Shown one piece after another: positions 11,568 to 36,516 of a stretch of DNA of 43,692 bases. The DNA comes from Gemmatimonadaceae bacterium (GTDB taxonomy: Bacteria; Gemmatimonadota; Gemmatimonadetes; Gemmatimonadales; Gemmatimonadaceae). A model generated the notes under the pieces. The model made no database searches. It saw nothing but the letters and a program-made list of their open reading frames with translations, and was not told the DNA's origin. The translations under genes and the position numbers were made by a program. The stretch lies in contig JANWIF010000068.1 in the NCBI GenBank assembly GCA_025450035.1, positions 1-43,692 of the forward strand. The letters are read 5' to 3'. Within the stretch, counting starts at the first letter, position 1. Each line of letters begins with the position of its first letter.

Positions 11568-11877
11568 GGAACACCTCGGTGGCGGGTGAATCTCCCACAA
11601 GATCGCAAGGATCGGGCGCCGGGCGCCAGGCGTCCATCGAACCGTGCAGTTGCGGCCGCAATGGGCCGCGAGCGCGGTCAGGAACGCCGCCGGACGGACC
11701 GAAGACGGCCCATCTATGAGTAGTGAAGCGCGGTGCGGCGCTCGTCTGTTCCCGTCTTGCGCCACGTCATACGTTGTCATACACTGTCTGCCGCTTTCAG
11801 CAGCGGCGGAGTGAGTTCGCCGCTCGCATCTCGAGTGGCGGCCGACGCGGTGGCGCCGGTGCGCGGGGAGATTCGTG
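11568..11877. promoter_or_regulatory. Divergent control region between dps and the ECF sigma gene
   Basis: About 310 bases without a supported gene, lying between two divergent genes, so it should hold both promoters. The visible feature is a tandem GTCATAC...GTCATAC at 11766-11772 and 11776-11782, spaced ten bases start to start, about one helical turn. This is the layout expected of a dimeric operator or activator site upstream of the sigma gene. I cannot assign -35 and -10 elements reliably. Confidence 0.4.
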
Positions 11878-12483
11878 ATGACGCAATCCCTCGGGCCGAT
11901 CGGCGGCGACCGTTGTGCCGGCGACGACGACCGTGCGCTCGTCGACGCCGTTCGCGCGGGCAGCGAGGCGGCGTTCTTCACGCTCTTCCACGCGAACTAC
12001 GAGATGTTATGCCGGTACGTGTACCGGTACGTGCGCTCGCGTGCCATCGCCGAGGAGCTGGTGAGCGATGTGTTTCTGCGGGTGTGGGCGCAGCGCGAGC
12101 GGTGGGAGGTACGCGGGCGCGTGCGCGCGTACCTGTATGGCGCCGCGCGCAATCTGGCCATCGATCATCTCCGTCGCGAGCGTGTGGAGCAGCGTTCGTT
12201 GGACGCGACGGTCAGGGAACATCGGGTAACTGGCGGCGAGAGGCGGCGGTGCGAGGTGGAAGAGCGGCTCGCGTCCGAGGAGCTGGCGGCAGCCATGCAG
12301 CGGGCTGTGGACGAACTTCCGCCGCGTCCTCGGCAGGTTTTTCTCTTGCGGTGGCAGCGGCATCTGACCAACGCCGAGATTGCCGCGTCGTTGGGCATCG
12401 CGGTCAAGACCGTGGAGATGCACATGACGCGGGCATTGGACGTGTTGCGTGGGGCGTTGCCGGAGGAGTTGCGCGGCGGGTGA
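11878..12483 (+). CDS. ECF-type RNA polymerase sigma factor (FecI-like)
   Basis: Sigma-70 family extracytoplasmic-function factor of 201 residues. Region 2 is at about residues 35-90 (FHANYEMLCRYVYRYVRS, EELVSDVFLRVWAQRERW, RAYLYGAARNLAIDHLRR). Region 4 is at about 145-190 (LPPRPRQVFLLRWQRHLTNA, EIAASLGIAVKTVEMHMTRA). GGGGAG about eight bases before the ATG at 11878 supports this start; a GTG three bases earlier is also possible. It is followed by FecR, a TonB receptor with an STN domain and an S9 isopeptidase. By analogy with FecI-FecR-FecA, it should be activated when the receptor binds its ligand and should transcribe the receptor operon. Confidence 0.92.
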   Translation: MTQSLGPIGGDRCAGDDDRALVDAVRAGSEAAFFTLFHANYEMLCRYVYRYVRSRAIAEELVSDVFLRVWAQRERWEVRGRVRAYLYGAARNLAIDHLRRERVEQRSLDATVREHRVTGGERRRCEVEERLASEELAAAMQRAVDELPPRPRQVFLLRWQRHLTNAEIAASLGIAVKTVEMHMTRALDVLRGALPEELRGG

Positions 12484-12654
12484 GGTGTGAAGCGGGAGAG
12501 CCGGGGCATTCGGGCCGTTATCGATTTGGCCTGTGGGGTCCCGGCCGTTGTCGTTTGCCATACAGGGTTGAGCGCTTCGGTATTCGTCATGAGGGACATG
12601 ACCGCATGTTGCGATGAGTTTCTTCTCACTGTTTTCCCTGGACTGACCGGCGAT

Positions 12655-13713
12655 ATGGATCTGGAGCTGTTGCGCCGGTGGGTGTTGGGCGAGTGTGACG
12701 CGGGCGAGCGCGAGGAGGTGGCGCGCTGGCTGGCGGAGGATCGATCGCACGAGCGGCTTGTGGAGGTTGTGCGGCGGATGTCGGCGGAGCCTGGGGCGTG
12801 GACGCAGTCGTTCGACGCTGGCGCCGCGTGGTCGCGGGTGTCGCGTGTCGTATCGTCGCCTGAGGGTGAGCGTGTCGTGCGCGTGCGCACGCCGGGACGT
12901 GTTCTCAGCATCGGGCAACGGGGGGGAGGCGCCGGATTCAGCGGATGGCGCGTGGCGGCGTGGGGTCTGGTGGCCGCGGCTGCCATTGCGTTAGGCAGTA
13001 AGATGGCGTGGGGGCCGTTATCGCGGGCGTTATCGGTGCCGCCGGCCAGCGTGCCGATGCGCGAGGTGATCGCCGCGCGGGGGCAGCGGGCGCAGGTGCG
13101 GCTGGTGGATGGCACGCGGGTGGAGCTCGCCGCCGGGAGCCGGCTCACGTATCCCGCCGCGTTCACCGACAGTGTGCGGGCCGTGTCGCTCGAGGGGGAG
13201 GCGTATTTCGAGGTGGAGCATGACGCGCGGCGGCCGTTCTTGGTGCGCACGCGGGGCGGCGTGACAGAGGATGTGGGAACGTCGTTCGTGGTGCGGCAGT
13301 ACGCGAGCGATGCGCGATTGGAGGTTGTGGTAGCATCGGGAACGGTGGCCGTGCGGGCGCCTGGGCGCAACGCGACTACGGCGCGGGAGGTCGGAGCCGG
13401 TCAGTTGGTGCGGCTCGACAGCAGTGGCGGCGCCGAGGTGCGCGCCGTGGATTTGGAGCAGTACCTCGCCTGGATGCATGGGCGGTTGGTCTTTCGGGAC
13501 ACGCCCTTCCGGGAGGTGTTGGCGCAGCTGGCGCGCTGGTACGACGCCGACTTCGAGCTTGCGGACAGCACGCTTGCGAGCCGGCGATTCACCGGTGCGT
13601 TTCAGGGCGAGTCGCTCGATCAGATCGTGAGCGAGCTCGCGCCGCCCATGCACGTTCGATACGAGCGGCGTGGGCGAACGATCGTCTTTTCGCGAATGCC
13701 GGGCGATCGTTAG
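12655..13713 (+). CDS. FecR-type anti-sigma factor / sigma regulator
   Basis: Membrane protein of about 352 residues. The short cytoplasmic anti-sigma head begins LELLRRWVLGECDAGEREEV. One membrane segment follows (VAAWGLVAAAAIALGSKMAW). The periplasmic FecR domain includes LVDGTRVELAAGSRLTYPAA, LEGEAYFEVEHDARRPFLV and DVGTSFVVRQY. The C-terminal DUF4974-like/STN-like domain has FRDTPFREVLAQLARWYDAD. I chose 12655 because the FecR family normally begins with this M-D-x-E-L-L pattern. In-frame starts at 12589 and a GTG at 12487 would add up to 56 residues without homology. The gene ends inside a GTTAGGC heptamer. It should pass the signal from the TonB receptor to the sigma factor. Confidence 0.9.
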   Translation: MDLELLRRWVLGECDAGEREEVARWLAEDRSHERLVEVVRRMSAEPGAWTQSFDAGAAWSRVSRVVSSPEGERVVRVRTPGRVLSIGQRGGGAGFSGWRVAAWGLVAAAAIALGSKMAWGPLSRALSVPPASVPMREVIAARGQRAQVRLVDGTRVELAAGSRLTYPAAFTDSVRAVSLEGEAYFEVEHDARRPFLVRTRGGVTEDVGTSFVVRQYASDARLEVVVASGTVAVRAPGRNATTAREVGAGQLVRLDSSGGAEVRAVDLEQYLAWMHGRLVFRDTPFREVLAQLARWYDADFELADSTLASRRFTGAFQGESLDQIVSELAPPMHVRYERRGRTIVFSRMPGDR

Positions 13714-13793: not shown

Positions 13794-16469
13794 ATGTGTA
13801 TCTCCGTAGTGCGGGGCATCGTGATAGGGGCCGGCTGTATCGTCCAGGCGGCAACGGTCGCTGCAGGGCAGGCTGTTGCGCCGGTCCGCATTGCCGCGGC
13901 ATCGATTCGCATTTCACCGCCGCCGCGGATGCAGGGCGTGACGTCCGTGCAGCGCGGGCGCGTGACGCTGGACATGAACAATGTGCCGCTCGGCAAAGTG
14001 CTCGCCGAGATCGAGCGGCAGGGTGACGTCACGTTGCTCTACAGTACTGACGTCGTGAACGTGAACCGGCGGGTCTCGATCAGCATCCGACAGGCCACGG
14101 TATCTGATGCGCTCTCGGCCGCCTTACGCGGTACGGGAGTCATCGCGCGCGTTGACGGGCCGGGTCGTGTGACGCTCGAGGGTCGCGGCGCACCAGATAC
14201 TACGCAGACGGGCACCATTCGAGGGCGCGTTGTCGATGCGAAGAGTGGTGAAGGCGTACCGCAAGCGACGATCGCGCTGCAAGGCTCGCGATACGCAACG
14301 CTGGCGAATGAAGATGGCCGCTATCTCATCGCCAAGATCGAGCCGGGCACGTACACGTTGGTGGCGCGCCGCATCGGCTACGAGCCGGCGAACGAGTCCA
14401 TCGTGATAGCCGCCGGGCAGGACACTGACGTGACGATCCGCCTTCGACAGTCGGCGAACATCCTCGACAAGGTGATCGTGACGGGGACGATCGTTCCCAC
14501 CGAAGTGCGGGCGGTACCGACTCCGGTGACAGTCATCAGCGCCGAGCAGATCGAGCAGCAGGACTTCAGGCGACTTGACCAAGCGGTGCGGATGTTCGTA
14601 CCGAGTGCGCTGTCGTGGGACACGGGACCGAACGCAGAGCAGGACGCCATCAGCGTTCGCGGTGCAAGCTCCCTGGCATTGGGATCGCCGATAAAGGTAT
14701 ACGTCGACGGCATCGAGGTCGCGTCGTCGAATTTCACGATGATGGACCCGAGCAGCGTTGAACGAGTCGAAGTGATTCGTGGCCCGCAGGCAGCCACGAT
14801 GTATGGCTCCGACGCGATGGGCGGGGTCATGCAGGTGTTCACCAAGAAAGGGAATGCCGCGCTCGACCGTCCGGAACTCGATCTCAAGGTGTCTCTCGGC
14901 ACCATTCAGAGCCCGTACAAGAGCGGCGGGACTCTGCGCCAGGATTATTCGGCCGTCGTACGCGGCGGTACGTCATCGGCGAGCTACAGCATCGGAGGGT
15001 CATTCTCGCACACCGGAGACTGGCTTCCTTACTACTACCTGTCGACACCGAGCGCGTTCGGCGGAGTGCACATCGCGCAGGGAAAGCTGTCACTCGATCT
15101 CTCCGGCCGATACATGAACACCAAGGAACCGTCTGTCCCGAATCCGTTCTTTGTGGGTGCCGGTATCTCCAGTCCGCTGCCGCCGTACGAGGACATGGAG
15201 TACCGCCAGTCGACACTCGGCGCGCATCTCACGTTCGACGCCACATCACACTGGCGACACTCGCTGACTCTCGGCGTCGACGGCCTGTCGTGGGATGATC
15301 ACAACACCAGGCCGCGGTTTACCACGCCGGCAGACAGTCTGATGTTCGTCTACGTCGGAGAGCTGCGAAAGATGTCGGCGGCCTACAACACATCGTTCAC
15401 CGTGCCGATGTCGGCGTCCTTGTCGACCGTCCTCACGGCCGGCATCGACCACTACAGCTACACGGCCAATCAGTTCTACTCGTTCTCGGCGCACAACAAT
15501 ACGGGTCCGATCATCTCCGACCCCGACGACCCAACTCAGGGCAGCCGCACGGTTGCGTCAAACACCGGCGTGTTTGGGCAGGCCCTGGTGAGCATTCACG
15601 ACGCGTTGTTTCTCACCGCTGGGCTCCGAGCCGAATACAACACCAATATGGGAAGCGACCTCGGCACGCCGATCTCACCGCGCGTGGGCGTCTCGTGGAC
15701 GCGGAATGTGGGCGAAGCGACAGTGAAAGTTCGCGCATCGTATGGTCAAGCGATTCGCGCGCCGATCCCGGCGATGAAGGACTACTCCAAGCAAGCGTAC
15801 GGCGAAATCCTCGCGAATCCGACGCTGGGCCCGGAGCGGCAACGCGGGTTCGACGGCGGTCTGGACGTCGCGTTTGGTGGGCGCGGCTCGTTCAGCGTGA
15901 GCTACTACGATCAGACCGCAATTGACCTGATTCAGGCTGTGTTGATTGATGGCAACGCGGTGCCGCCCATTCGGCAGTACCAGAATGTGGGGCGCGTCGC
16001 GAACCGCGGCTTGGAACTCGAAGGTGCCATGCAGTTAGGCATCGCACACCTGACCGCCCAACTGTCCAGGTCGACGAGCCGCGTGCTGGACCTCGGACCT
16101 ACCTATGCCGGTGACTTGCGTCCCGGCGATCAGATCCTCGGCATTCCTCGCACGACTGCCGGAGCGACTGTCGCGCTCTCGGCGCTTGCCCACACGAGCC
16201 TATCGCTCGGCGTCGTCTACGTAGGCGCGCTGACGAACTACGACTATCGCGCGATGTACACGGGTCCGTCGAGGAATTCGTTGCGGGACTATTGGACCGC
16301 GTATCCCTCATTCGCCAAGATGAACCTCGGCGTGTCGCAGACACTGTCCAGCTCAGCGACCGCGTTCGCGGCGATCGAGAACGTGGCCAACTCCAATCCT
16401 TTCGAACAAGACAACCTCGGACCGATCCAAGGCCGGACGTCGATGATCGGCTTGCGCCTTCACTTCTGA
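13794..16469 (+). CDS. TonB-dependent receptor with STN signalling domain
   Basis: Outer-membrane receptor of 891 residues with a signal peptide at about 1-25. An STN domain is at about 56-128 (VTLDMNNVPLGKVLAEIERQ, VSDALSAALRGTG). A carboxypeptidase-regulatory-like domain is at about 141-218 (IRGRVVDAKSGEGVPQATIA, GTYTLVARRIGYEP). The plug is at about 235-345 (IEQQDFRRLDQAVR, VERVEVIRGPQAATMYGSDA). The beta barrel ends with the usual C-terminal aromatic (LRLHF). GGAGG seven bases before the ATG fixes the start. The STN domain and the upstream sigma/FecR pair mark it as a signalling transducer. Position one base before the isopeptidase gene and convergent with the lasso operon suggests that it imports the lasso peptide; that ligand is inferred. 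Confidence 0.93.
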   Translation: MCISVVRGIVIGAGCIVQAATVAAGQAVAPVRIAAASIRISPPPRMQGVTSVQRGRVTLDMNNVPLGKVLAEIERQGDVTLLYSTDVVNVNRRVSISIRQATVSDALSAALRGTGVIARVDGPGRVTLEGRGAPDTTQTGTIRGRVVDAKSGEGVPQATIALQGSRYATLANEDGRYLIAKIEPGTYTLVARRIGYEPANESIVIAAGQDTDVTIRLRQSANILDKVIVTGTIVPTEVRAVPTPVTVISAEQIEQQDFRRLDQAVRMFVPSALSWDTGPNAEQDAISVRGASSLALGSPIKVYVDGIEVASSNFTMMDPSSVERVEVIRGPQAATMYGSDAMGGVMQVFTKKGNAALDRPELDLKVSLGTIQSPYKSGGTLRQDYSAVVRGGTSSASYSIGGSFSHTGDWLPYYYLSTPSAFGGVHIAQGKLSLDLSGRYMNTKEPSVPNPFFVGAGISSPLPPYEDMEYRQSTLGAHLTFDATSHWRHSLTLGVDGLSWDDHNTRPRFTTPADSLMFVYVGELRKMSAAYNTSFTVPMSASLSTVLTAGIDHYSYTANQFYSFSAHNNTGPIISDPDDPTQGSRTVASNTGVFGQALVSIHDALFLTAGLRAEYNTNMGSDLGTPISPRVGVSWTRNVGEATVKVRASYGQAIRAPIPAMKDYSKQAYGEILANPTLGPERQRGFDGGLDVAFGGRGSFSVSYYDQTAIDLIQAVLIDGNAVPPIRQYQNVGRVANRGLELEGAMQLGIAHLTAQLSRSTSRVLDLGPTYAGDLRPGDQILGIPRTTAGATVALSALAHTSLSLGVVYVGALTNYDYRAMYTGPSRNSLRDYWTAYPSFAKMNLGVSQTLSSSATAFAAIENVANSNPFEQDNLGPIQGRTSMIGLRLHF

Positions 16470-16470
16470 G

Positions 16471-18876
16471 ATGATCGACATGCCAATCATGACACAACCG
16501 TCCAATGCAGGCGGTTCGCATCGCGCGGGGCTCGGTGCGGCCTGCCTGCGCAATGTCGCGCTCCTACTATCCGCGATGATTGCGCCCCGGCTGGCGGCGC
16601 AGGCGGCGTCGACCAAGCCACTCAGCGTTGCCGATGCGATGGCCACTCGCACCATAGCGTACTTCGCGCCGATTTCCCTGTCGCCGGATGGTCAGTGGGT
16701 TGCGTACACCGTTACGAATCCGAAAAAGATCCGCACGCATACTGATGCCGCGATCCAGTTCCTGCCCACCGGCACGCCCATCCCCTCCGAAGGATCCGAG
16801 TTATGGATCACCAACACCCACACTGGCGAGTCGCGCGATCTCACGGGGCCGAGCGGCGCGAGTTGGGATGGCGTATGGTCGCCCGACGGGCGGCAGTTGG
16901 CGTTCTACTCGGATCGTGGCGGTCGAGCGCAAGTGTGGATCTGGGATCGCGAGACCGGGAAGAGTCGCCGGGTTTCGCCGCTCATCGCGCATCCGTTCTT
17001 CCCGTTCGAAGCGATGCAGTGGACGCCGGACGGGCGTCAGCTCCTCGTCAAGCTCCTACCCGAGGGCGTTCCACTCGAGACGACGCCGGATACCGTGGCG
17101 CGGGCAGCTTCCACCGCGCCTAACGACAGCGTCGTGACCGTAGTCGTGTACAGCGCCAACACGGGGAAGAACGACTCGTCGAGCGCTCCCGCGTTCGTTA
17201 GTCAGCGAATAACCGCCGATCTCGCGCTGATGTCCGTGGCCGACGGGCGGGTGCGTCGACTCGTGCGCCGCAGTCCCGTCATGCGTGCCTGGATCTCGCC
17301 GACGGGAAGAGACATTGCATTCACCATTTCCCTCAGGATGGTGACGACCCCTGAGATCACGAATCTGTACGACGTGGGAGTGGTCGATGTGGCGACCGGA
17401 CGCACGCGCATTGTCGCGAAGAGCGTACTCCACTATTGGGGACCTCCGGTGAGTTGGTCGCCGGACGGGACGCGTCTTGCATTCACCACCAAGCGCCACT
17501 ATTTCCAGCTGTTCGACAACCCCGGTCGACCGCTGCCGGCTGGCGATTGCTTCGTCGTGGATCTGGCAACGGACTCGGTGCGCAACGTGTCGCCGGGTAC
17601 ACACGCGGACTTGAGTAGTGAGTTTCACCCGCCCGTCTGGGACTCCGCCGGCACGACGCTGTACACAGTAGGCGGTGACACCCTGTGGCGGCTCGATGCA
17701 CGCCGTGGTGGGCTCACCGCGGTAGCTTCGATAGCGGGCCGGAAGCTGATAGCCGTGCTCTCGCCAACTCCAGAGGCGCGACCGTGGCTTCCCGAAGATG
17801 GTGATCACGTACTTGTCCGCACACTCGATGCGACCAGTCTCCGCGCGGGTGTTGCGCGCATCGACCTCCGCACCGGTGCAGACACCCTGTTGTTCGAGGA
17901 CGACGAGGCGTTGCCCGGAGAAGGTCGCGTGACGTTCGGCGTGGACGCCGCGCAAAAGGTCCTGGTGTATCAGCGCCAAGACGCGTCTCACCCTCAAGAT
18001 CTGTGGGTGGCAGGTCCCGACTTTAGTGACCGCCACCGGCTCACCCACATCAATCCGCAGCTCGACGCCTATACGTTTGGCCGCAGTCAGCTGGTTCGTT
18101 GGCGCAGCGACGACGGAGACTCGCTACGCGGGGCCCTGCTGCTTCCGGCGAACTATCGTCCCGGAACGCGGTATCCGTTGATCGTATGGGTTTACGGCGG
18201 CGAGCAGTGGTCGATGTTCGCGAACAACTTCGGTGTGATTCCGATCGACCTCGACTACATGCAGCTGCTCGCCACGCGTGGATTCGCCGTGCTCGTGCCC
18301 GACGCTCCGCAGCACATTGGGACGCCCATGCTCGATCTAGCAAAGACGGTACTTCCAGGCGTGAACAAGGTGATCGATCTCGGAATCGCGGATCCGGAAC
18401 GCCTTGGTATCATGGGGCAGAGCTACGGCTGCGCGTCCACTCTCATGATCATCGTGCAGACCACTCGCTTCAAGGCCGCCGTGTGCGCATCGGGGACGTC
18501 GAGCGTCATCAGCATGGCCGGGTTGCTAGGAGGTGAAGGCAGCACCTGGGCCAACATCGGTCAAGGAAAAATGGGCGGCACGGTGTGGCAGCACCGGGAG
18601 AGATACATCGAGAACTCTCCGTACTTCTACCTCGACCGGGTCACGACGCCTGTACTCATCGTCCAGGGCACGTCCGATCGAGCGTCGCCGCCATTTCAAT
18701 CCGACGCCACATTCGAAGCGCTTCGACAGCTCGGGAAACGCGTAGTGTACTTACGATACGATGGCGAAGGTCACGGACCGATGCTCTACTCCGCGGCGAA
18801 CCGGGCTCACTACCTCAACCGAGTGGTTCGATGGTTCGACGAATATCTTAGCGAGAAGAAGGTTTTGGCGCCCTGA
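16471..18876 (+). CDS. S9 family peptidase, probable AtxE2-like lasso peptide isopeptidase
   Basis: Protein of 801 residues with a probable signal peptide (hydrophobic stretch about 24-44, VALLLSAMIAPRLAAQA). An N-terminal beta-propeller follows (repeated SPDGxxxA/F motifs such as SPDGQWVAYTV, SPDGRQLAFYSD, SPDGTRLAFTT), then a C-terminal alpha/beta hydrolase. The triad is clear: Ser651 in GIMGQSYGCAS, Asp736 in VQGTSDRASPP and His768 in YDGEGHGPM. This is the prolyl oligopeptidase-like fold of AtxE2 lasso isopeptidases, which open the macrolactam ring. The start lies one base after the receptor stop, so the two are co-translated. The lasso assignment rests on this operon and the convergent lasso cluster; by sequence alone it could be a general S9 dipeptidyl peptidase. 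Confidence 0.85.
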   Translation: MIDMPIMTQPSNAGGSHRAGLGAACLRNVALLLSAMIAPRLAAQAASTKPLSVADAMATRTIAYFAPISLSPDGQWVAYTVTNPKKIRTHTDAAIQFLPTGTPIPSEGSELWITNTHTGESRDLTGPSGASWDGVWSPDGRQLAFYSDRGGRAQVWIWDRETGKSRRVSPLIAHPFFPFEAMQWTPDGRQLLVKLLPEGVPLETTPDTVARAASTAPNDSVVTVVVYSANTGKNDSSSAPAFVSQRITADLALMSVADGRVRRLVRRSPVMRAWISPTGRDIAFTISLRMVTTPEITNLYDVGVVDVATGRTRIVAKSVLHYWGPPVSWSPDGTRLAFTTKRHYFQLFDNPGRPLPAGDCFVVDLATDSVRNVSPGTHADLSSEFHPPVWDSAGTTLYTVGGDTLWRLDARRGGLTAVASIAGRKLIAVLSPTPEARPWLPEDGDHVLVRTLDATSLRAGVARIDLRTGADTLLFEDDEALPGEGRVTFGVDAAQKVLVYQRQDASHPQDLWVAGPDFSDRHRLTHINPQLDAYTFGRSQLVRWRSDDGDSLRGALLLPANYRPGTRYPLIVWVYGGEQWSMFANNFGVIPIDLDYMQLLATRGFAVLVPDAPQHIGTPMLDLAKTVLPGVNKVIDLGIADPERLGIMGQSYGCASTLMIIVQTTRFKAAVCASGTSSVISMAGLLGGEGSTWANIGQGKMGGTVWQHRERYIENSPYFYLDRVTTPVLIVQGTSDRASPPFQSDATFEALRQLGKRVVYLRYDGEGHGPMLYSAANRAHYLNRVVRWFDEYLSEKKVLAP

Positions 18877-19057: not shown

Positions 19058-19207
19058 CTATAGACCGAATCCGAGATCGCCGGGCCCGTTCTGCAGCCCC
19101 ATCCCTGACGGCTCGAACGGAATCACCGTCTTCAGTCGCGTTGCCGTCACGACATCGCCGCGCTCGGATAATACCGGCGCCTCGTAGTTCCTTCTGTCCG
19201 CGTTCAT
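19058..19207 (-). CDS. Lasso peptide precursor A1
   Basis: 49-residue precursor. The leader (residues 1-24) carries the recognition motif bound by B1: Tyr8, Pro11, Leu13, Gly17 and Thr23 (Y-EA-P-V-L-SER-G-...-T). Thr23 at the -2 position predicts cleavage after Arg24, giving a 25-residue core. Core residues 1-9 are LKTVIPFEP, with Glu8 positioned for an 8-residue macrolactam from Leu1. The tail ends GDLGFGL. An excellent AAGGAGG five bases before the ATG decides the start; an in-frame ATG at 19246 would add 13 residues running through this site. It is the last gene of the lasso operon, about 100 bases after A2. Start, length and motif spacing exactly match A2. Confidence 0.9.
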   Translation of the reverse strand: MNADRRNYEAPVLSERGDVVTATRLKTVIPFEPSGMGLQNGPGDLGFGL

Positions 19208-19306: not shown

Positions 19307-19456
19307 CTACAGGCCGAATCCTACCTCGCCCGCGGAATCCCGCGGCAGAATTGTTGCCGGCTCGAACTGGCCGGTGTCCTTCGCACGCGTCGCTGCCACC
19401 GCATCTCCCTTGGCTTCCAGCGACGGCGACTCATAGGCCTTCCGAATTGAGCGCAT
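19307..19456 (-). CDS. Lasso peptide precursor A2
   Basis: 49-residue precursor in the same register as A1: Tyr8, Pro11, Leu13, Gly17 and Thr23 (Y-ES-P-S-L-EAK-G-...-T), with predicted cleavage after Arg24. The 25-residue core begins AKDTGQFEP, so Glu8 would close an 8-residue ring with Ala1, and ends GEVGFGL. Only Lys2, Phe7-Glu8-Pro9 and the terminal Gly-Phe-Gly-Leu region are clearly shared with the A1 core; the rest has diverged. AGGAG six bases upstream supports the ATG. The first 26 bases overlap the 3' end of the cyclase gene in another frame, so A2 is translationally linked to C. Confidence 0.9.
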   Translation of the reverse strand: MRSIRKAYESPSLEAKGDAVAATRAKDTGQFEPATILPRDSAGEVGFGL

Positions 19457-21353
19457 TGGTTGCTCCTGTGGATTGGGATTGAGAGTTGACTGCCTGACTC
19501 CGGGCGGCCGAGTGCTCGACCGCCGATCCCTGATTCGTCCACCGGCCAGACCGTACTCGAAGCCAATACTCGAGCGCGAGAGCGTTCAGTACCGCCCCAC
19601 GCTCGAACTGCCCATCCAACTGCGTCGCGCTGCGCAGGGCCACTCGCAGCTGCGAGATATCAATGCAGCCCATGTCCGCCAGCATGGAGCGCGTCAACAA
19701 CGGTTCAAAACGCGCGCTCTCGTGCAGCAGCGACCAGGCGATACGGCCGTCAAATGCTCCCTTCCAACGTCTGGTTCGGACAATCTCCGGCAAACAGCCG
19801 CGCATGGCTTCGCGCAACACCCATTTGCGGGCGTTTGGGCGACGGCACATGTCCGGCGGAAGTCGCAGCGCAAACTCGACGAGTGGCCGATGACAAAAGG
19901 GGTAACGCATCTCGACTGCGTCGGCGACCAGTCCATGGTCGATCGCCAGCGCGATGGCGCCCGTGGAAAACGCCACCTCGTGAGCATACTGTCGGCCGCG
20001 TTGCCCGCCGTAGCTCTGGGCAACCGCCGACCGAGCGCTCAATGCCAGCCGCTCGTGGTGCCCCGCTGCAATCCACGATGGCACGCGCGCACCGCGCGCT
20101 AGCCTCGTACGCGCCGGCGCGGGAACCAACGGAAGCAGCGCATTGAGATACGCGAGCTCCCAGAACGAAACCCGGCCCAATGCCGCCCAACGCAGCATCT
20201 CGCTCACCGCGCGGCGGGATTCTCCTTTCGCAATCCAATCGGCGAAGAAGAACATGTTGCCCACCAGGTAGTGATCGGATCCGATGCCGGAGAGCAGCAC
20301 GCGAGCGTTGGACTCGCGGAGGATTCTCAACGTGGCGATGTCACGCGCCGCGAGAAGGGAGCGTACGGAGGGAGTGTCGGTGGTGGACGCAGATGGGCTC
20401 GTAGCCTGCAACAGCAGATAGTCAATGAGGACTTCGTTGCGAACATCGAACGTCTTCACGACGCTGTCCGAATACACCCGCTCGTCCGAGCCCGCACCCA
20501 CCGAATCCGCGTACGTGATCGTCCCCGCTATTCCCGCCGCGACCTTCCCCTCCCGCTTGAGCGTCTCCGCGATACACACGATCGAGGACGAATCGAGCCC
20601 CCCCGACAACTCCGACCACGTACGGCCGTCATCGGTTAGGCACACGCGAACCGCCTGCGTCAGCAGCCCACGGAACTCCTCGATCGCGGCCTGCTCGTCA
20701 TTCACCGGCCCGCTCTCGAATTCTGTGGGACGCCAGTACGTGCGGAACTCGATGGCGCCAGCGTGTGTGAGCGCCATCGATGCCGGCGGGACCGCAGTTA
20801 CGCCCGCGTACGGGGTGCGATGGGGATCGGGCACCACGCCGGCCGCAAACTCGACCAGATAGTCCTCGTCATAGCGATCGTGATCGGCCAGCGCCTCGGC
20901 TCGCGATGAAAACACCACGACATCGCCCCACCGCCTGACGTAGAGCGTTCGCACACCGAACGCATCCCGCGCGGCCAGCACCGTACCCGACTGCGTGTCG
21001 GCGATGACGAACGAGAAGTCGCCGATGAGATCGCGAATGGCCCGAGCGCCGAGACGCCGGTAGTGCCGAAGCACGAGATCGAGATCGCCAAGAGTTTCGC
21101 CTGTGCGCCGATACCGCCGCGCGAGCTCGTCGCGATTCTCCAGACGCACCAAACCAACCGCGATCAGCGATCCGCAGCTCGCCACCTCGGGCCAATCCGA
21201 ACCATCGTTACGGACGCGAAGGATCGACACACCACCCGACTCACTCCACGTCGATTCCATCCCCCGTCGCACGCAGTAGCGCTCGAGCCCCACGCTCGAT
21301 TGGGGGCTCACGCGCTCACCGCGAGCATGGATAAGGCAGGCGTAGAAGTTCAC
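19431..21353 (-). CDS. Lasso peptide macrocyclase C (asparagine synthetase-like)
   Basis: Protein of 640 residues that adenylates the Glu8 side chain of the core and forms the isopeptide bond to the core N-terminus. The N-terminal glutaminase-like domain (about 1-200: YACLIHARGE, LIGDFSFVIADTQSGTVLAARD, FGVRTLYVRR) lacks the catalytic Cys at position 2, as is normal for lasso cyclases. The synthetase domain holds the PP-loop ELSGGLDSSSIVCIAE (SGGLDSS about 250-256) and the later GIGSDHYLVG motif, and ends in the family RRWKGAFDG / YWLRVRSGRW region. I chose GTG at 21353 because it overlaps the B2 stop as GTGA and starts at the NFYAC strand. The 3' end overlaps precursor A2. Confidence 0.93.
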   Translation of the reverse strand: MNFYACLIHARGERVSPQSSVGLERYCVRRGMESTWSESGGVSILRVRNDGSDWPEVASCGSLIAVGLVRLENRDELARRYRRTGETLGDLDLVLRHYRRLGARAIRDLIGDFSFVIADTQSGTVLAARDAFGVRTLYVRRWGDVVVFSSRAEALADHDRYDEDYLVEFAAGVVPDPHRTPYAGVTAVPPASMALTHAGAIEFRTYWRPTEFESGPVNDEQAAIEEFRGLLTQAVRVCLTDDGRTWSELSGGLDSSSIVCIAETLKREGKVAAGIAGTITYADSVGAGSDERVYSDSVVKTFDVRNEVLIDYLLLQATSPSASTTDTPSVRSLLAARDIATLRILRESNARVLLSGIGSDHYLVGNMFFFADWIAKGESRRAVSEMLRWAALGRVSFWELAYLNALLPLVPAPARTRLARGARVPSWIAAGHHERLALSARSAVAQSYGGQRGRQYAHEVAFSTGAIALAIDHGLVADAVEMRYPFCHRPLVEFALRLPPDMCRRPNARKWVLREAMRGCLPEIVRTRRWKGAFDGRIAWSLLHESARFEPLLTRSMLADMGCIDISQLRVALRSATQLDGQFERGAVLNALALEYWLRVRSGRWTNQGSAVEHSAARSQAVNSQSQSTGATNALNSEGL

Positions 21354-21790
21354 GGGAGCACGTCCGGTAGCGGTGCAAAGAACGCCACGTGCTCCTCTAT
21401 GTCGTTCAGCGGACGGCCGAGATATTCGACCCACGCGTGCGCCCCGAACGGGTACGCCTGCACGCCGAGGCGCAATCGCACCGTGGCTCCCGCCAACCGC
21501 AGCAGCACGTAGAGTGTGAGCGACTGCTCGAGACAGAGCGCGCGCCCGGGGAACAGCGCGGCAGCCATGGCGACCGAACGCTCGATGGCTTCGACGGTGC
21601 TCGGCCCCACGCCGCGATCCGTTCGAGCACACCGCTCGACCCAGCGTACGAGCCTAACCGTGCGTCCGAACTTGAGCGCGATCAAGGATGCGCGAACGGC
21701 CACGAGGACTGCAAGGCACCGCCAAACACCGGGCACGCGTACCGGCGCGCGCGCGGGCGCATTCTCAGTCACAGCACGCTCAACGCCCAT
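21350..21790 (-). CDS. Lasso peptide B2 leader peptidase (transglutaminase-like)
   Basis: Protein of 146 residues in the Transglut_core3/lasso B2 family, which removes the leader from the precursor. The Cys-His-Asp triad is visible as Cys86 in GRALCLEQSLTLYVLLRLAG, His118 in PFGAHAWVEYLGRPLND and Asp130 at the end of that block. The preceding WVERC and VEAIERSVAMAAALFPGR stretches are typical. I chose the ATG at 21790 (GGGGGC about six bases upstream). It overlaps the transporter end by 11 bases and gives the normal length; an in-frame ATG at 21838 would lie inside the transporter gene. It works with the separate RRE protein B1. Confidence 0.92.
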   Translation of the reverse strand: MGVERAVTENAPARAPVRVPGVWRCLAVLVAVRASLIALKFGRTVRLVRWVERCARTDRGVGPSTVEAIERSVAMAAALFPGRALCLEQSLTLYVLLRLAGATVRLRLGVQAYPFGAHAWVEYLGRPLNDIEEHVAFFAPLPDVLP

Positions 21791-23615
21791 TTTCGCCCCC
21801 TGCTGCGCCGAAGGCAGCGCGCAACACCGGCGCCTCACTCCGCCCGCGACTTCGCGACCGCTCCCCCCGCCACTGCCGCTCGTACAACCGCCGATACACC
21901 CCCCGCCGCGCCATCAATGCCTCGTGCGACCCACGCTCCACGATCCGCCCACCCTCGAGCACCACGATCTGATCCGCGCTCCGAATCGTCGACAACCGAT
22001 GCGCGATCACGAACGTGGTCCGACCCCGCCGCAACAGCTCGAGTCCTTCCTGCACGGCGGCCTCGCTCTCAGCATCCAGACTCGATGTCGCCTCGTCCAA
22101 CACCAGGATCCGCGGCGACGCCAGCAACGCCCGCGCGATGGCCACCCGCTGCCGCTGACCGCCGGACAACCGCACGCCCCGCTCGCCAATCACGGTATCG
22201 TATCCGTTAGGCAGGCGCTCTATGAATTCATCGCACTGGGCGAGCGCGGCCACGGCCCGCACGTCGGCAGTCGTCGCGTCGCCCCGCGCATAACGGATGG
22301 CTTCGGCTATGGTGCCGTCGAACAACACGGCATCCTGCAGCACCACGCCCACGTGCGCGCGATACTCGGTTCGCTTGAGACCGGCGAGATCTCGCCCGTC
22401 GATCAACACCCGCCCGCGCGTGGGACGGTCGAAAGCGAGCAGCAGCCGGCACAACGTGCTCTTCCCGGCCCCGCTCGCCCCCACCAGCGCGACGGTCGAT
22501 GCGGGCACGGCGTACAGATCGATGCCGCGCAGCACGAACCGGCCAGCCGCGTAGGCGTAGCTCACGTCCTCGAGCTCCACGGCGCCCACCACACGCGGCA
22601 CGGACGCGAGCTCGCGATCCTCGTCATCCTCGGTGGGTACCACGCGCAGCTCGCGAATCCGCGCCATTCCGGCCGCGGCCTTCCCCAGCTCGCCGCTCAT
22701 CGCAGCGGCCTGCACGAGCGGTGCGGCCAACAGCCCCACGAGATACGCGAACATCGCGAGATCGCCCAACGTCATCGCGCCGGCGGCAATGGCCTGCGCG
22801 CCGGCCACGAGCAGCAGCACGCCGGCGAAGCCGGTTGCCATGGTGGTGCCGGCGGTGAGCCGCGCTACCCGCCGCACGCCCGCCGCCGCGGCGTCGAACA
22901 ACGCCCGCGACCGGCGCGCGAACTCGGCCGTCTCCCATCGCTCGGCGCCGCACCCCTTCACCACGCGAATGCCGGCCAGCGATTCGGCCAACCGCGCGCT
23001 CATCCCCGCGTGCCGCCGGCTCACGTCCCGGAACGCCGCCGAGAGGCCGCCATACGACCGCGCCAGTCCGATGCCTAACGCAGAAGAGGCGAGGATGATG
23101 GCCACGGTGAGCGGCCAGCTCACCCACGCCATCACGCCCAACGCCGCCGCGGCGGTCACCACGCCCCCGGCGAGCGGCACGATTCCCGACGCAATCACGA
23201 TCCGTACCTGCTCGGTATCGCTCATCACCCGCGACAGCAGCGCGCCGGACCGCTCGGCGTCGAAGAACGACACCGGCAGCCGCATCACGTGCGCGTGCAG
23301 CTCCTCGCGCAGCACGGTCACGATGCGCTGGGCCCCCACACCAGTCACCTGCGCCAACCTCGACGCGGCGAGCCCCTCGATCACAATCGCCGCAACCGCG
23401 CCCGCAGCCAGCGGTACCAGCCTCGCGCGTCGATGGGCGCCGATCACATCGTCGATCACCAACTTGGCGGCCACGGGCAACGCCAGCGCGGCCACGCGGT
23501 TCGCGAGCATGAGCGCCATGCCCATGCCTAACAACCGGCGCTCCTTCCACACCGCCGCGCGCGCCTCGCGCCACGCTTCGCGCCGCGCCACCGACACCGC
23601 GATCACGGCTCGCAT
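21780..23615 (-). CDS. Lasso peptide ABC exporter D (membrane + ATPase half-transporter)
   Basis: Half-transporter of 611 residues. The N-terminal ABC_membrane domain (about 30-320) has six hydrophobic segments and the motifs LPVSFFDAERSGALLSRVMS and RWETAEFARRSRALFD. The C-terminal ATPase has Walker A LVGASGAGKSTLCRLLLAF, Q-loop VVLQDAVLFDGT, signature VRLSGGQRQRVAIARALLAS, Walker B ILVLDEATSSLD and the switch AHRLSTIRSADQ. It would export the mature lasso peptide and give self-immunity, as McjD does. It overlaps B1 by 13 bases and B2 by 11. There is no C39 peptidase domain, which fits leader removal by the separate B2. Confidence 0.93.
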   Translation of the reverse strand: MRAVIAVSVARREAWREARAAVWKERRLLGMGMALMLANRVAALALPVAAKLVIDDVIGAHRRARLVPLAAGAVAAIVIEGLAASRLAQVTGVGAQRIVTVLREELHAHVMRLPVSFFDAERSGALLSRVMSDTEQVRIVIASGIVPLAGGVVTAAAALGVMAWVSWPLTVAIILASSALGIGLARSYGGLSAAFRDVSRRHAGMSARLAESLAGIRVVKGCGAERWETAEFARRSRALFDAAAAGVRRVARLTAGTTMATGFAGVLLLVAGAQAIAAGAMTLGDLAMFAYLVGLLAAPLVQAAAMSGELGKAAAGMARIRELRVVPTEDDEDRELASVPRVVGAVELEDVSYAYAAGRFVLRGIDLYAVPASTVALVGASGAGKSTLCRLLLAFDRPTRGRVLIDGRDLAGLKRTEYRAHVGVVLQDAVLFDGTIAEAIRYARGDATTADVRAVAALAQCDEFIERLPNGYDTVIGERGVRLSGGQRQRVAIARALLASPRILVLDEATSSLDAESEAAVQEGLELLRRGRTTFVIAHRLSTIRSADQIVVLEGGRIVERGSHEALMARRGVYRRLYERQWRGERSRSRGRSEAPVLRAAFGAAGGENGR

Positions 23616-23923
23616 TGCACCAGGGACTCCGACAGCAGCCGCCGTATCAGCGCCGCGGCGTCCTCCGCGGCCCGCTCGGGTGACACGTCGTACTCGGCGC
23701 GCAGGCGCTCCACGATGCCGGCGAACGGCACGCCCTCACACACCAGACTCCAGATGCGGCTCCCCACCTCGTTGAGCGCGTAGTACCGCCCGCGCTCCAC
23801 GTCCAGCAGCACGGTCTCCTCCCCCTGCGTGGCCGCCAGCACGTGGCACGGCGGCACCAACCGGGCGCTCGTTCCGGACGCAACGTTTCCGCCACCCCGC
23901 TGTTGGTCTGGCTGCTGGTGCAT
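23603..23923 (-). CDS. Lasso peptide B1 protein (RiPP recognition element, PqqD-like)
   Basis: Protein of about 106 residues with a PqqD/RRE winged-helix fold that binds the leader motif and delivers precursors to B2. Diagnostic motifs are ETVLLDVERGRYYALNEVGS and RIWSLVCEG, followed by the helical ERLRAEYDVSPERAAEDAAA and LIRRLLSESLVQ. I chose the ATG at 23923; an extra in-frame ATG at 23983 is possible and would add 20 residues without homology. It overlaps the transporter by 13 bases. The RRE is a separate gene from the peptidase (split B), unlike the fused McjB of most proteobacterial clusters. Confidence 0.9.
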   Translation of the reverse strand: MHQQPDQQRGGGNVASGTSARLVPPCHVLAATQGEETVLLDVERGRYYALNEVGSRIWSLVCEGVPFAGIVERLRAEYDVSPERAAEDAAALIRRLLSESLVQCEP

Positions 23924-24020: not shown

Positions 24021-24818
24021 TTACTCCACGCGCCGATTGGCGTGGGAGTGCAGCAGGTAGTCGACGAACTGCTCGCGCACCGCCAGAAACCCGCCGTGGT
24101 TACGAAGCGCACTGGGCGAACACCCGCAATAGCGCGACAGCAGGTTCGCCAACGCAGCGCTCGACGCGAATCCGAGCGCGGCCGCCACCTGCTTCGGGCT
24201 TTGCTCGAGCACGTCCAGCCGCCACGCGGCGCGCAACGCGGCGCACCAGAAGATCACGCGGGACGCGGGCGGGAAACCGGCGCGCTCCAACCGGCTCTCG
24301 ATGGTCCGCGATCCGACGCCCAGCAGCGACGCGGCGCGCGTCACCGCGAGTCGGGGTCCGCCGTGTTCGGCGCACAGCACCATGAACGCGCCTAACGGGC
24401 GGGGGACCGCCGGCGCGACGGCCTCGAGGATCGGCAGCGCCGCGCCCGGTTCGCTCCGCCCATCGAGCGCCGCCCGCGCCATCGCCGCCAGATCGTCCAC
24501 GCCGCGCAGCACCACCTGCACGGGCGCTCCCGAACCGGCCAGCGCCAGCACGTCGCGAGCGCCAGAGTCTGTGAGCGGCGCCCACGCCAACACCGGAGGG
24601 GCCGACGCGCGCCCCGCGAGCTCGGCGAGCACGGACGCCACGCTGGCACCCACCCGGTCGCGCAGCTCGCTCACCACCACCCGCACGCCGCCGGCCGCGA
24701 CCAGCGCGCGCAACGACTCGGCGCGGTCGCACACGCGCACCGTTGCCACCGCGGCCAGTACAGGCTCGATGGTCAGGCGATCGTGCCCGGTCGCGATCAG
24801 GGCGACGATCGGCGCCAC
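24021..24818 (-). CDS. HTH (AraC-type) transcriptional regulator with a receiver-like N-terminus
   Basis: Protein of 265 residues starting with GTG. The first 110 residues look like a degenerate response-regulator fold: alternating hydrophobic strands such as PIVALIATG, VRVVVSELRD and PPVLAWAPL, but no clear phospho-acceptor pattern. The C-terminal third is an AraC-type double helix-turn-helix: RLAVTRAASLLGVGSRTIES, then SPKQVAAALGFASSAALANL and SRYCGCSPSALRNHGG. It is the first gene of the minus-strand lasso operon, 97 bases before B1, and is divergent from a solute-binding lipoprotein gene, so it probably controls the lasso genes. A second protein of the same architecture lies at 28340-29179. 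Confidence 0.8.
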   Translation of the reverse strand: MAPIVALIATGHDRLTIEPVLAAVATVRVCDRAESLRALVAAGGVRVVVSELRDRVGASVASVLAELAGRASAPPVLAWAPLTDSGARDVLALAGSGAPVQVVLRGVDDLAAMARAALDGRSEPGAALPILEAVAPAVPRPLGAFMVLCAEHGGPRLAVTRAASLLGVGSRTIESRLERAGFPPASRVIFWCAALRAAWRLDVLEQSPKQVAAALGFASSAALANLLSRYCGCSPSALRNHGGFLAVREQFVDYLLHSHANRRVE

Positions 24819-24931: not shown

Positions 24932-26623
24932 ATGTATCCATCGTTCGCCCAACTCGCCACCCCACATCGCTCGCGCCGCAACGTCGCGGCGACCGGCGCC
25001 GTGCTCGTTGCGATCGCCGCCGGGTGCGGCACAGCGCACGATCCGGCCCGCGATCATACGCTGGTGATCGCCCTCGCCGCCGAGCCCACGCTGCTCCTCC
25101 CACCACTCATCGATGAAACGCCGGGTTTCGTGGTGGCCGATCAGATTCTCGAACGGCTGGCCGATCCGGATTCCACGCTCGACATCATGCACGACACCGC
25201 CTTCCACCCGCGCCTCGCCGCAGCGTGGACGTGGGCCGCGGACTCGATGGCCATCGCGTTCCGCCTTGCGCCTAACGCAAGATGGCACGACGGCCGGCGG
25301 GTGACGGCGCATGATGTCCGCTTCACGTTCGATGTGTACGCCGACACCACCATCGCATCCGCTGCCGCGCCGCTCCTCGACAACATCGATTCCGTCCAGG
25401 TCCGCGACGACTCCACAGCGGTGTTCTGGTTCCACCGTCGCGCGCGCCTGCAATTCTTCGACGCCACCTACCACATGCGCATCCTGCCGCGGCACCTGCT
25501 CGACTCGCTGCCACGCCGCGCGCTCCGCGGCAGCCCGTTCGCACGCGCGCCCACCGGAACCGGCCCCTTTCGCTTCAGCCGGTGGCGCGCCGGTCAATCC
25601 GTGGAACTGGCCGCCAACGAGCGTTATCACGGCCGCCGCGCGCAATTCGATCGCCTGGTGTTCGCCATCGCATCCGATCCCTCCGCCACGCTCGCCCGCG
25701 CCCTCGCCGGCGAAGTGGACGTCGCGCCGCACATTCGCGCTTCGGATGTCGCGCGCGTTTCGCAGTCCCGGCGACTGCGCGTGCGGTCGTGGCCATCGCT
25801 GTCCAACGGCCTCGTGATGCTCGCCCTGCACGACGCCGCGACACCTGGCGACGCGCATCCGTTGTTCGGCGATTCCCGTGTCCGGCGCGCGCTCACCCTC
25901 GCACTCGATCGCGCGCGCATCACGCGCGGCGCGTTGGGCGAAACCGCGTCTCCCGCGCGCGGCCCGCTCCCTGCCCCGCTGCTGCACGGCGCTTTCCCGC
26001 CGCTCGTGCTCCTCGCGTTCGATCCGCGGCACGCCGCGGCGCTGCTCGACAGTGCCGGATGGTACATCACCGGCCCCGAACGCATTCGCCATCGCGGGCC
26101 GCGCGAACTGCGCTTCACACTGCTCATCCCCACTGCTGCCGTCGCCGCTCGCCGCGCCGCGATTCTCGCGCAGGAACAGCTGCGCAGCGTTGGCATCGCC
26201 ATGGACATCGATCTTGCCGACCCGGGCACGCTGGCCGCTCGGTTGGGCGAGCACCGCTTCGACGCGGTGCTCCTCGCCCTCGATTGGGATCCGAACCCGC
26301 TCAGCGCCCGCCAGCTGTGGGGAAGCAGCGCCGTAGCGCATGGCGCGAATTTCAGCGGCTATCAGAGCGCCGTGTTCGACTTCGCGATCGAAGCGTCCGC
26401 GCAGGCTCGCGATGCCGGCGCCACGCGCACGTTCGCCGCACAGGCGTGGGCGCAGCTCGTGGCCGACGCACCAGCGATCTGGCTCTACGACCTCCGCCAG
26501 ATCGCCGCCGTCCGCGCCAGCGTCCACTCCACTCCGGGCCGCCCCGATGCGTGGTGGAGCAGCCTCGCCGATTGGTCCGCCAAGACCGATGCCGACTCGC
26601 TCCGACCGACGGGGGTGCCTTGA
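24932..26623 (+). CDS. ABC transporter substrate-binding lipoprotein, family 5 (peptide/nickel type)
   Basis: Protein of 563 residues. A signal peptide ends in a lipobox (GAVLVAIAAGC, Cys about 31), so it should be a periplasmic lipoprotein. SBP_bac_5 motifs follow: PRLAAAWTWAADSMAIAFRL, ARWHDGRRVTAHDVRFTFDV, the cluster APTGTGPFRFSRWRAGQSVE and the late VRRALTLALDRARI. This family binds oligopeptides, dipeptides, nickel or heme. No permease or ATPase genes are adjacent, so it is an orphan in this window. GGGAG six bases upstream supports the ATG. It is divergent from the lasso operon and could capture peptide fragments released by the isopeptidase; that link is only positional. Confidence 0.85.
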   Translation: MYPSFAQLATPHRSRRNVAATGAVLVAIAAGCGTAHDPARDHTLVIALAAEPTLLLPPLIDETPGFVVADQILERLADPDSTLDIMHDTAFHPRLAAAWTWAADSMAIAFRLAPNARWHDGRRVTAHDVRFTFDVYADTTIASAAAPLLDNIDSVQVRDDSTAVFWFHRRARLQFFDATYHMRILPRHLLDSLPRRALRGSPFARAPTGTGPFRFSRWRAGQSVELAANERYHGRRAQFDRLVFAIASDPSATLARALAGEVDVAPHIRASDVARVSQSRRLRVRSWPSLSNGLVMLALHDAATPGDAHPLFGDSRVRRALTLALDRARITRGALGETASPARGPLPAPLLHGAFPPLVLLAFDPRHAAALLDSAGWYITGPERIRHRGPRELRFTLLIPTAAVAARRAAILAQEQLRSVGIAMDIDLADPGTLAARLGEHRFDAVLLALDWDPNPLSARQLWGSSAVAHGANFSGYQSAVFDFAIEASAQARDAGATRTFAAQAWAQLVADAPAIWLYDLRQIAAVRASVHSTPGRPDAWWSSLADWSAKTDADSLRPTGVP

Positions 26624-34716: not shown

Positions 34717-34839
34717 CCGCCCTCGTGCCGGTTGCCCCCCCCCCCCGCCGGCGGCCGTCAGCCCCTAGCTCAGCGTTCGAGCGAAGCCCCGCGTACTGCG
34801 GATGATCTGCATCTCGTCCGCCCTTCCGGAGCTGCCACA

Positions 34840-36516
34840 ATGAACGGTACGCTGGATTCGGCTCCCGCCCCTCGCCGGCTTCACTCCGCACGCCGCAGCA
34901 CCGATTTCACCTTCACCACCATCGTTGGCGCGTTTTGCGCCGCCGCGATCGCCTCAGCCGCGCCGGCCCAACAAGCGCGCGCCCGCGCCCAACGGTTAGC
35001 CGACAGCGTGCGCACCATGCGCCAGCCCGCGCACCCCGACCATGACACGACACGCACAGCCAACGCCGATTCGATTCGCATCTCCGAGATCGCGACCCGG
35101 CCGCCCGTCGTCACGCACCATACGATGCAGATCAAGGGTGCGCCGCTCGCCTACACGGCGACGACCGGCATGCTCCCCATCCGCAACGACACCACCGGCG
35201 TGGCCGAGGGTTACATCTTTTACGTCGCATATACAAAGGATGGTACCGACGACCCGGCGAAGCGTCCGCTCACGTTTGTATTCAATGGTGGGCCCGGGTC
35301 GGCCACGGTGTGGCTGCACATGGGCGCATTCGGTCCCAAGCGCGTGAAGCTGCTGCCCGATGGATCAGTGCTCCCACCTCCGCCGACGGTCGAAGACAAC
35401 CCCAACACCCTGCTCGACCAGTCCGATCTGGTATTTCTCGATCCTGTGGGGACGGGCTTCAGCCGCCCGGCCAGACCCGCGCTCGGGCCTAACTTCTGGG
35501 GTGTGGACGAGGACCTGCGCTCGGTTGCCGAGTTCATTCGGCTCTACCTCACGCGGTACGAGCGGTGGAGCTCGCCCAAGTTTCTCGCTGGAGAAAGCTA
35601 CGGTACCACGCGCGCCGCCGGTCTCGCTGGCGTGCTCGCGGACCACGGCATCGCGCTCAATGGCATCGTGCTCATTTCCACGGTGCTCAACTTCGAGACC
35701 CTGTCGGACAACAAGGGGAACGACCTCGGCTACGTGGGGTTTCTCCCCTCGTACGCAGCTATTGCGTGGTACCACAAGAAGCTGCCCCCCGATCTGCAGC
35801 AGCAGAGCGTCGAACAGGTCACCGCGCAGGCCGAGCGGTTTGCCGGCGGCGGCTACACGCTCGCGCTGATGGGCGGTCATGGCCTAACGCCCGCGCGACG
35901 GCAAGCGGTGATCGACACGTTGTCGCGGTTCACCGGGCTGTCCGCCGCTTTTATCGACCACAACGACCTCCGCATCCCGCTCTCGCGCTTCGACCAGGAG
36001 TTGATGCGCGACCAACACCTCACCGTCGGGCGCCTGGACGGCCGGTTCACCGCCTACGCCACCGATGCCGGCGCCGAGCGCGGGGCCTTCGACCCCAGCG
36101 ACGCCGCCCTCGAGAATGTGTTCACACCGGTGTTGAACGATTACGTTAGGCGCGAGCTCGGCTTCCACGACGAGCAGATGTACTGGGTTCTGGGCGGCGG
36201 CATCGGCCGGTGGAAATATCCGCAGCGCCAGGGATTCCTGAACGTGACGCCCTATCTCGAGAGCGCCTTCGCCAAGAACCCGTCCATGAAGTTGTTCGTC
36301 GCCATGGGCTACTATGATACCGCCACTCCGTACTACGCTGTGGAGTACACGCTCGACCATCTGTCTATCAGCGACAACGCCCGCTCCGACATCACTACCG
36401 CGTTCTTCCCCGCCGGACACATGGTGTACATCGATACGCCATCGCTGACCACGCTGCGGAGCGATCTCGCGACGTGGATGGATGGGGCGATGTCACACAC
36501 ATCAGGTAAGAGGTAG
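34840..36516 (+). CDS. S10 family serine carboxypeptidase-like protein
   Basis: Secreted protein of 558 residues with an N-terminal hydrophobic segment (TIVGAFCAAAIASAAPAQQA, about 26-45). S10 features are in order: the oxyanion-hole motif TFVFNGGPGSATVWLHMGAF, DQSDLVFLDPVGTGFS, the nucleophile Ser253 in KFLAGESYGTTRAAGLA, Asp493 in FVAMGYYDTATPYYAVE and His527 in FFPAGHMVYID. All three catalytic residues are present. I chose the ATG at 34840 (GGAG eight bases upstream); the open frame extends upstream through a Pro-rich stretch beyond a C12 run. It likely trims C-terminal residues from extracytoplasmic peptides. The next gene, a large BNR protein, is separated by a CT-rich hairpin region. 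Confidence 0.9.
   Translation: MNGTLDSAPAPRRLHSARRSTDFTFTTIVGAFCAAAIASAAPAQQARARAQRLADSVRTMRQPAHPDHDTTRTANADSIRISEIATRPPVVTHHTMQIKGAPLAYTATTGMLPIRNDTTGVAEGYIFYVAYTKDGTDDPAKRPLTFVFNGGPGSATVWLHMGAFGPKRVKLLPDGSVLPPPPTVEDNPNTLLDQSDLVFLDPVGTGFSRPARPALGPNFWGVDEDLRSVAEFIRLYLTRYERWSSPKFLAGESYGTTRAAGLAGVLADHGIALNGIVLISTVLNFETLSDNKGNDLGYVGFLPSYAAIAWYHKKLPPDLQQQSVEQVTAQAERFAGGGYTLALMGGHGLTPARRQAVIDTLSRFTGLSAAFIDHNDLRIPLSRFDQELMRDQHLTVGRLDGRFTAYATDAGAERGAFDPSDAALENVFTPVLNDYVRRELGFHDEQMYWVLGGGIGRWKYPQRQGFLNVTPYLESAFAKNPSMKLFVAMGYYDTATPYYAVEYTLDHLSISDNARSDITTAFFPAGHMVYIDTPSLTTLRSDLATWMDGAMSHTSGKR

Follow-up and report, generated by a model that had tools for sequence, protein, structure and literature searches.

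A lasso-linked S9 serine peptidase of the Gemmatimonadaceae from outside the AtxE2 isopeptidase family

It is an open question why bacteria should produce lasso peptides only to destroy them, and the role of those lassos whose clusters encode an isopeptidase is called enigmatic in the accessible text of the review PMC9266682. Lasso isopeptidases are placed mainly in the alphaproteobacteria (PMC13352647, accessible text). In a stretch of 43,692 nucleotides from a Gemmatimonadaceae soil bacterium (contig JANWIF010000068.1; the window), a serine peptidase gene at 16471..18876 of the plus strand faces a lasso operon. We regard its product as an exported serine peptidase of S9C-like type, whose probable role is to open the lassos of its own cluster after their TonB-dependent import. 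The new point is that this lasso-linked enzyme lies outside the AtxE2 family and comes from another branch of S9.

The gene is an uninterrupted reading frame for 801 amino acids, from an ATG at 16471 to a stop at 18876. As originally predicted, it begins one base past the stop of the TonB receptor gene, whose TGA ends at 16469; further in-frame ATGs at 16480 and 16489 are possible alternative starts. The protein is a member of the S9 (prolyl oligopeptidase) family, with a TolB-like propeller and an alpha/beta hydrolase: its Peptidase_S9 domain (PF00326) scores 90.8 bits against a Pfam gathering cut-off of 22.6 and its N-terminal PD40 propeller repeats 54.1 bits against 20.9, and the fold matches are to S9 proteins. 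This proposed lasso isopeptidase has an apparent signal peptide (residues 1 to about 43/45), a propeller (about 49-500) and a hydrolase domain (about 530-795). The catalytic triad, which had been predicted to be complete, consists of Ser651 (in GQSYG), Asp736 and His768. Ser651 and His768 are invariant and Asp736 is at least 90% conserved among 24 aligned relatives, and a separate second alignment gave identical positions. A pseudogene is ruled out by the intact triad and the lack of internal stops.

The probable signal peptide of the original prediction was checked with a score of our own design, which averages hydropathy over the best stretch of 10 residues that has an AxA-like site after it. 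The N terminus scores 2.66, and 4 of 300 shuffled versions of it score that high; scores of at least 2.13 were found in all nine window-type proteins tested versus 1 of 22 cytoplasmic controls, in line with the prediction. For several relatives the score is not significant when compared with shuffles of their own sequence (141/300 in L042). In the AlphaFold model, whose mean pLDDT is 82.3, residues 27-43 form a helix of low confidence, and the match to S9 folds begins at about residue 46-49. Ordinary S9 outgroups of Gemmatimonadota and most AtxE2-family proteins have similar signal-peptide-like N termini; three of ten AtxE2-family proteins score low at their annotated starts, two of them with a hydrophobic stretch in frame just upstream. 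Export of the window peptidase is thus likely, but as a trait that it has in common with other S9 proteins and nothing special. Action in the periplasm, as first proposed, is therefore plausible as a location, but the N terminus does not set the enzyme apart.

The peptidase gene ends a plus-strand cassette of ECF sigma factor, FecR, TonB receptor and peptidase. Convergent with it on the minus strand is the lasso operon, comprising two precursors, C, B2, an ABC exporter and B1, so that the facing genes run AraC, B1, exporter, B2, C, A2, A1. The first cassette gene encodes a FecI-like ECF sigma factor (11875..12483; TIGR02985 and Sigma70_r2/r4 matches) with homologs, 72-75% identical, in equivalent position in L039 and L103. 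A FecR-like anti-sigma factor follows (12487..13713; FecR and FecR_C Pfam matches), and then the TonB-dependent receptor (13794..16469), in which Pfam finds STN, CarboxypepD_reg, plug and barrel domains. The coupling of peptidase and receptor, noticed from the window alone, recurs elsewhere, the S9 gene being preceded by a receptor homolog in L039, L040, L042, L043, L090 and L103. The interval in which the peptidase gene and the lasso operon converge revealed no promoter or terminator pattern.

Both lasso precursors are 49 residues long and share a pattern with their homologs: a YxxPxL leader motif, Thr at -2 with a basic residue beside it at -1, an acidic eighth core residue (Glu8 in both), Pro9 and a GFGL end (GFQL in two). 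The same pattern is present in L039, L090, L103, L041 (two precursors), L042 and L043, while core residue 1 may be Leu, Ala, Val, Ile, Ser, Gln or His. The conserved acid at position 8, followed by Pro9, predicts an 8-residue ring. Precursor A1 (19058..19207, minus strand) has the predicted core LKTVIPFE-P... and ring Leu1-Glu8, with the ribosome site AAGGAGGA ahead of its ATG; A2 (19307..19456, minus strand) has the predicted core AKDTGQFE-P... and ring Ala1-Glu8, with AGGAG ahead of its ATG and a start that overlaps the end of C. The calculated monoisotopic masses of the two predicted lassos are 2525.30 Da (A1) and 2557.28 Da (A2).

The remaining operon genes, all on the minus strand, begin with the asparagine-synthetase-like cyclase C (19431..21353; NF033535 and Asn_synthase Pfam matches), whose GTG start overlaps the B2 stop (GTGA). 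The leader peptidase B2 (21350..21838) reaches 85.4 bits, above the NF033537 cut-off of 33. Next come the MsbA-type ABC exporter D (21780..23615; ABC_membrane and ABC_tran), the PqqD-like leader-binding protein B1 (23603..23923; PqqD Pfam, 65 bits; its ATG was picked by us) and an AraC-type regulator (24021..24818; HTH_18), which has a 49% identical homolog in equivalent position in L039. Precursor, B1, B2 and C thus occur together as in a lasso cluster, with C at 185 bits, below the NF033535 cut-off of 525.

Divergent from the operon is an SBP_bac_5 peptide-binding lipoprotein gene (24932..26623, plus strand; PF00496, 220 bits; lipobox-like AIAAGC), which had been suggested to take up the linear product. 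That proposal has weakened: a homolog in equivalent position is found only in L039, of the same genus (57% identity), none is present at L042 or L043, several other linked loci end earlier, and membership of the lasso system is doubtful. Downstream of the lasso region lie genes for a serine carboxypeptidase-like (S10) protein (34732-36513, plus strand) and then a 1077-residue sortilin/BNR-repeat protein (36667-39897, plus strand).

The placement of the peptidase beside lasso genes is conserved. When 298 Gemmatimonadota genomes were searched with the window peptidase, the nine best matches, itself included (382-1839 bits), stood clear of the next at 239.5 bits. Six of the nine (the window and L039-L043) face a lasso C/B2 set and three (L044-L046) do not, compared with none of 12 outgroup S9 loci (Fisher p 0.0015). 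A scan of named GTDB contigs adds the linked loci L090 and L103 in Gemmatimonadota, the latter ending at its lasso precursors, and L091, L092, L093 and L104 in Acidobacteriota. In total, 12 linked loci with 14 peptidases are known from the two phyla; the adjacency first seen in the window is upheld by this conserved convergent linkage, and a chance neighbour is ruled out.

The linkage is far from universal. No lasso gene was detected near 11 relatives (L044, L045, L046, L095, L096, L097, L099, L100, L101, L102 and L106), several of whose loci are short, so that failure to see a neighbour need not mean that it is absent; the assemblies of eight of the 11 gave no B2 match. Five further Acidobacteriota genomes have a strong peptidase match and none is linked: four are without B2 and one has B2 about 980 kb away. 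Thus the S9 lineage as a whole is not lasso-specific, and the fold alone does not indicate an isopeptidase. Since B2 is found in 93 of the 298 Gemmatimonadota genomes, only a minority of the phylum's lasso genomes were found with a window-type peptidase.

Some of these loci depart from the simple plan. A Gemmatimonadaceae MAG (L090:9677-17176) has three tandem S9 paralogs between TonB receptor and lasso operon, perhaps one enzyme per lasso product. In L039 (7734-9745) and L103 (8020-10001) a 655-residue BNR/Asp-box protein separates receptor from peptidase, and an extra S9A-type prolyl oligopeptidase lies among the lasso biosynthesis genes of the Acidobacteriota locus L092 (15264-17327, minus strand). 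L041 has a 454-residue reading frame that is SusD-like by eye and gave no Pfam match. In two genomes, members of another S9 group, 79-80% alike, are encoded a few kilobases away from lasso C/B2 genes (L197:9627-13309, minus strand; L195:553-2391, plus strand), which may be a further lasso association or chance.

Where in S9 the enzyme belongs bears directly on its name, for the original prediction implied kinship with AtxE2. NF033523, the AtxE2-family model, is the best NCBIfam match of the window peptidase and the gene order is that of known clusters, so it has to be considered that the enzyme is an AtxE2-family isopeptidase that diverged strongly and spread a single time together with its entire cluster. 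The score, however, is 163.5 bits where the cut-off is 400, and ordinary S9 proteins of Gemmatimonadota reach 164. No match above the cut-off was found in the 298 Gemmatimonadota genomes with four candidates per genome scored; the window's own genome was unmatched there, although hmmscan does match the window peptidase to the model, and this search is therefore weak evidence. Catalytic-domain alignment of 86 rows, leaving out the duplicate contigs L094, L098, L107, L116 and L117, gave an 84-row tree (without L162 and L002) and a careful tree of 38 rows, and in neither does the window peptidase group with AtxE2 and its relatives. In the 84-row tree a starred branch has all 14 AtxE2-family rows on one side, and the window type is nested among ordinary S9 proteins. 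Forcing the lasso-linked sets of window type and AtxE2 family into one clade costs 50.6 log-likelihood units (AU p 0.0477) in the 84-row tree and 34.5 (AU p 0.0136) in the careful one; a joint clade is rejected both times, at p-values that are moderate and with long AtxE2 branches. Profile ranks agree, as a window-type HMM places 51 of 60 other rows higher than the top-scoring of 12 AtxE2-family rows, and five ordinary S9 proteins outscore all 14 window-type rows with an AtxE2 HMM. The catalytic acid is Glu in 14/14 AtxE2-family rows and Asp in the window peptidase, in 12 of the 14 linked window-type rows (L041 and L042 have Glu) and in 11/11 unlinked relatives. The cyclases of the window's kind, moreover, are not nearest to AtxE2-type cyclases. 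Common descent with the AtxE2 family as one travelling cluster is therefore improbable; the window peptidase belongs, by these sequence comparisons, to a different S9 lineage. Structural comparison, proposed originally with AtxE2 in mind, led elsewhere too: the nearest solved fold to the AlphaFold model is the S9 carboxypeptidase 8wt1 (Z 32.3, rmsd 3.6, 592 aligned), and SpI-IsoP came 17th in Foldseek and outside the top 50 of a second structural comparison, the latter being no evidence of a different fold. A window-type profile run against PDB sequences finds 8wt1 first (4e-68) and AtxE2 second (E 9e-38), which leaves room for a distant common origin with AtxE2.

With the peptidase outside the AtxE2 family, the label 'isopeptidase' rests on context: the lasso-cluster setting that suggested it stands, the family membership does not, and the activity is probable from genomic neighbourhood. 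The main competing explanation is a general periplasmic S9C-like peptidase, similar to carboxypeptidases or dipeptidyl-peptidases, which would digest imported linear peptides or trim the lasso tail with no specificity for the isopeptide bond. A carboxypeptidase as nearest solved relative in sequence and fold, the many close relatives away from lasso genes and the occurrence of receptor-S9 cassettes without them (L102, L159 and L190, below) all favour it. Against this, linked members are concentrated in one part of the tree, making up 13 of the 15 rows of a weakly supported subclade in the 84-row tree (linked window-type rows do not form one clade in either tree), and the place facing lasso genes is kept across two phyla despite strongly differing cyclases. 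We therefore consider a general peptidase possible, though clearly the less probable choice. It is also conceivable, by analogy, that the lasso resembles a siderophore and that its opening in the periplasm frees a bound ligand. Such cargo release has been proposed for known isopeptidase clusters in the accessible portions of PMC9266682 and PMC11006600, and the FecI/FecR/TonB logic resembles siderophore uptake; the ligand is putative only, and the idea, which we think very unlikely, is compatible with lasso opening and offers no alternative chemistry.

The reading we prefer, that the enzyme opens the cluster's own lassos, gives each gene a part. The cell would export the lasso peptide, as the ABC gene suggests, and the TonB receptor would bring it back across the outer membrane, as the receptor gene suggests. 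Ligand binding would switch on the cassette through sigma/FecR, and the periplasmic peptidase would cut the isopeptide bond between residue 1 and Glu8, leaving a linear peptide from each lasso. Lasso import, peptidase export and isopeptide cleavage, with their order and purpose, are what we infer from the gene set.

Other genes of the cluster differ as well. Cyclases fall into separate AtxE2-type, Acidobacteriota and Gemmatimonadota groups, those of Gemmatimonadota being placed among cyclases of clusters in which a window-type peptidase was not found; this comparison carries a warning that long branches meet at L202. In L201, of the same family, the receptor, C, B2, B1 and AraC match those of the window, and the peptidase position (L201:1962-4283, plus strand) holds a very divergent S9 protein on a long branch that groups elsewhere and keeps Ser/Asp/His, as if the slot had been refilled. 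Sigma-FecR-TonB receptor-S9 cassettes of proteobacteria (L102, L159 and L190) exist in which lasso genes were not detected; this suggests that a module for peptide uptake and cleavage came first and was joined later by lasso genes, and it equally supports a general peptidase. It appears that lasso clusters acquired the window's S9 lineage and the AtxE2 family in independent events, and that the plan of sigma factor, FecR, TonB receptor and S9 gene facing lasso genes, known from alphaproteobacteria, came together on at least two occasions, with S9 enzymes that are not orthologous. Whether lasso linearisation with TonB re-uptake itself arose at least twice, in Gemmatimonadota and Acidobacteriota with a non-AtxE2 S9C-like periplasmic peptidase, cyclases of two further lineages, a convergent layout and in some cases a convergent catalytic Glu, we judge to be evenly balanced.

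Should another S9 lineage indeed have been drawn into this position in two further phyla, the cycle of making, exporting, reimporting and opening lassos would itself be under selection, and would not be a quirk of one enzyme family. If linearisation did arise twice, a widespread class of lasso peptides would have opening after re-import as its purpose. Annotation with NF033523 may also miss enzymes of the window type, as the search of four candidates per genome in 298 Gemmatimonadota genomes indicates. The accessible parts of PMC9266682, PMC12670498, PMC11006600, PMC13352647 and PMC11878206 do not mention this lineage, and no paper on it was listed in the literature searched on lasso peptides and isopeptidases.

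In both sequence and fold the best matches, which cover almost the full chain, are to 8wt1, Deinococcus 5yzn and acylaminoacyl peptidases, which we take to be the S9C subfamily. These share the Ser/Asp/His triad, whereas the lasso-cluster context belongs to the window peptidase. In layout the resemblance is to the alphaproteobacterial type: sigma, FecR, TonB receptor and isopeptidase face C-B2-A in Novosphingobium and other plasmids, and 11 annotated plasmid clusters (L089 and L179-L188) have receptor and isopeptidase facing C and precursor as in the window. L181 has no sigma or FecR adjoining the receptor, L180 has no annotated B2, L188 is cut before any sigma and L178 has the same layout with an unannotated isopeptidase frame; the CarboxypepD_reg domain of the window receptor is absent from that of L089. 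Known isopeptidase clusters are described as almost constant in architecture, to which the rubrinodin cluster adds an ABC transporter (PMC9266682, accessible text); by that description, rubrinodin-type clusters share exporter, isopeptidase, TonB receptor and FecI/FecR with the window. Compared with AtxE2-family clusters, that of the window has an ABC exporter and its precursors at the operon end. The window peptidase and the AtxE2 family (NF033523; AtxE2 5txc, SpI-IsoP 5jrk) have in common the S9 propeller-hydrolase fold, a Ser/acid/His triad, an apparent signal peptide (in most AtxE2-family members) and a gene that comes after that of a TonB receptor, within a sigma-FecR cassette opposite lasso genes. 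They differ in the acid, Asp736 in place of Glu610 of AtxE2, and in descent, the window peptidase scoring below the family cut-off and coming from a different S9 lineage.
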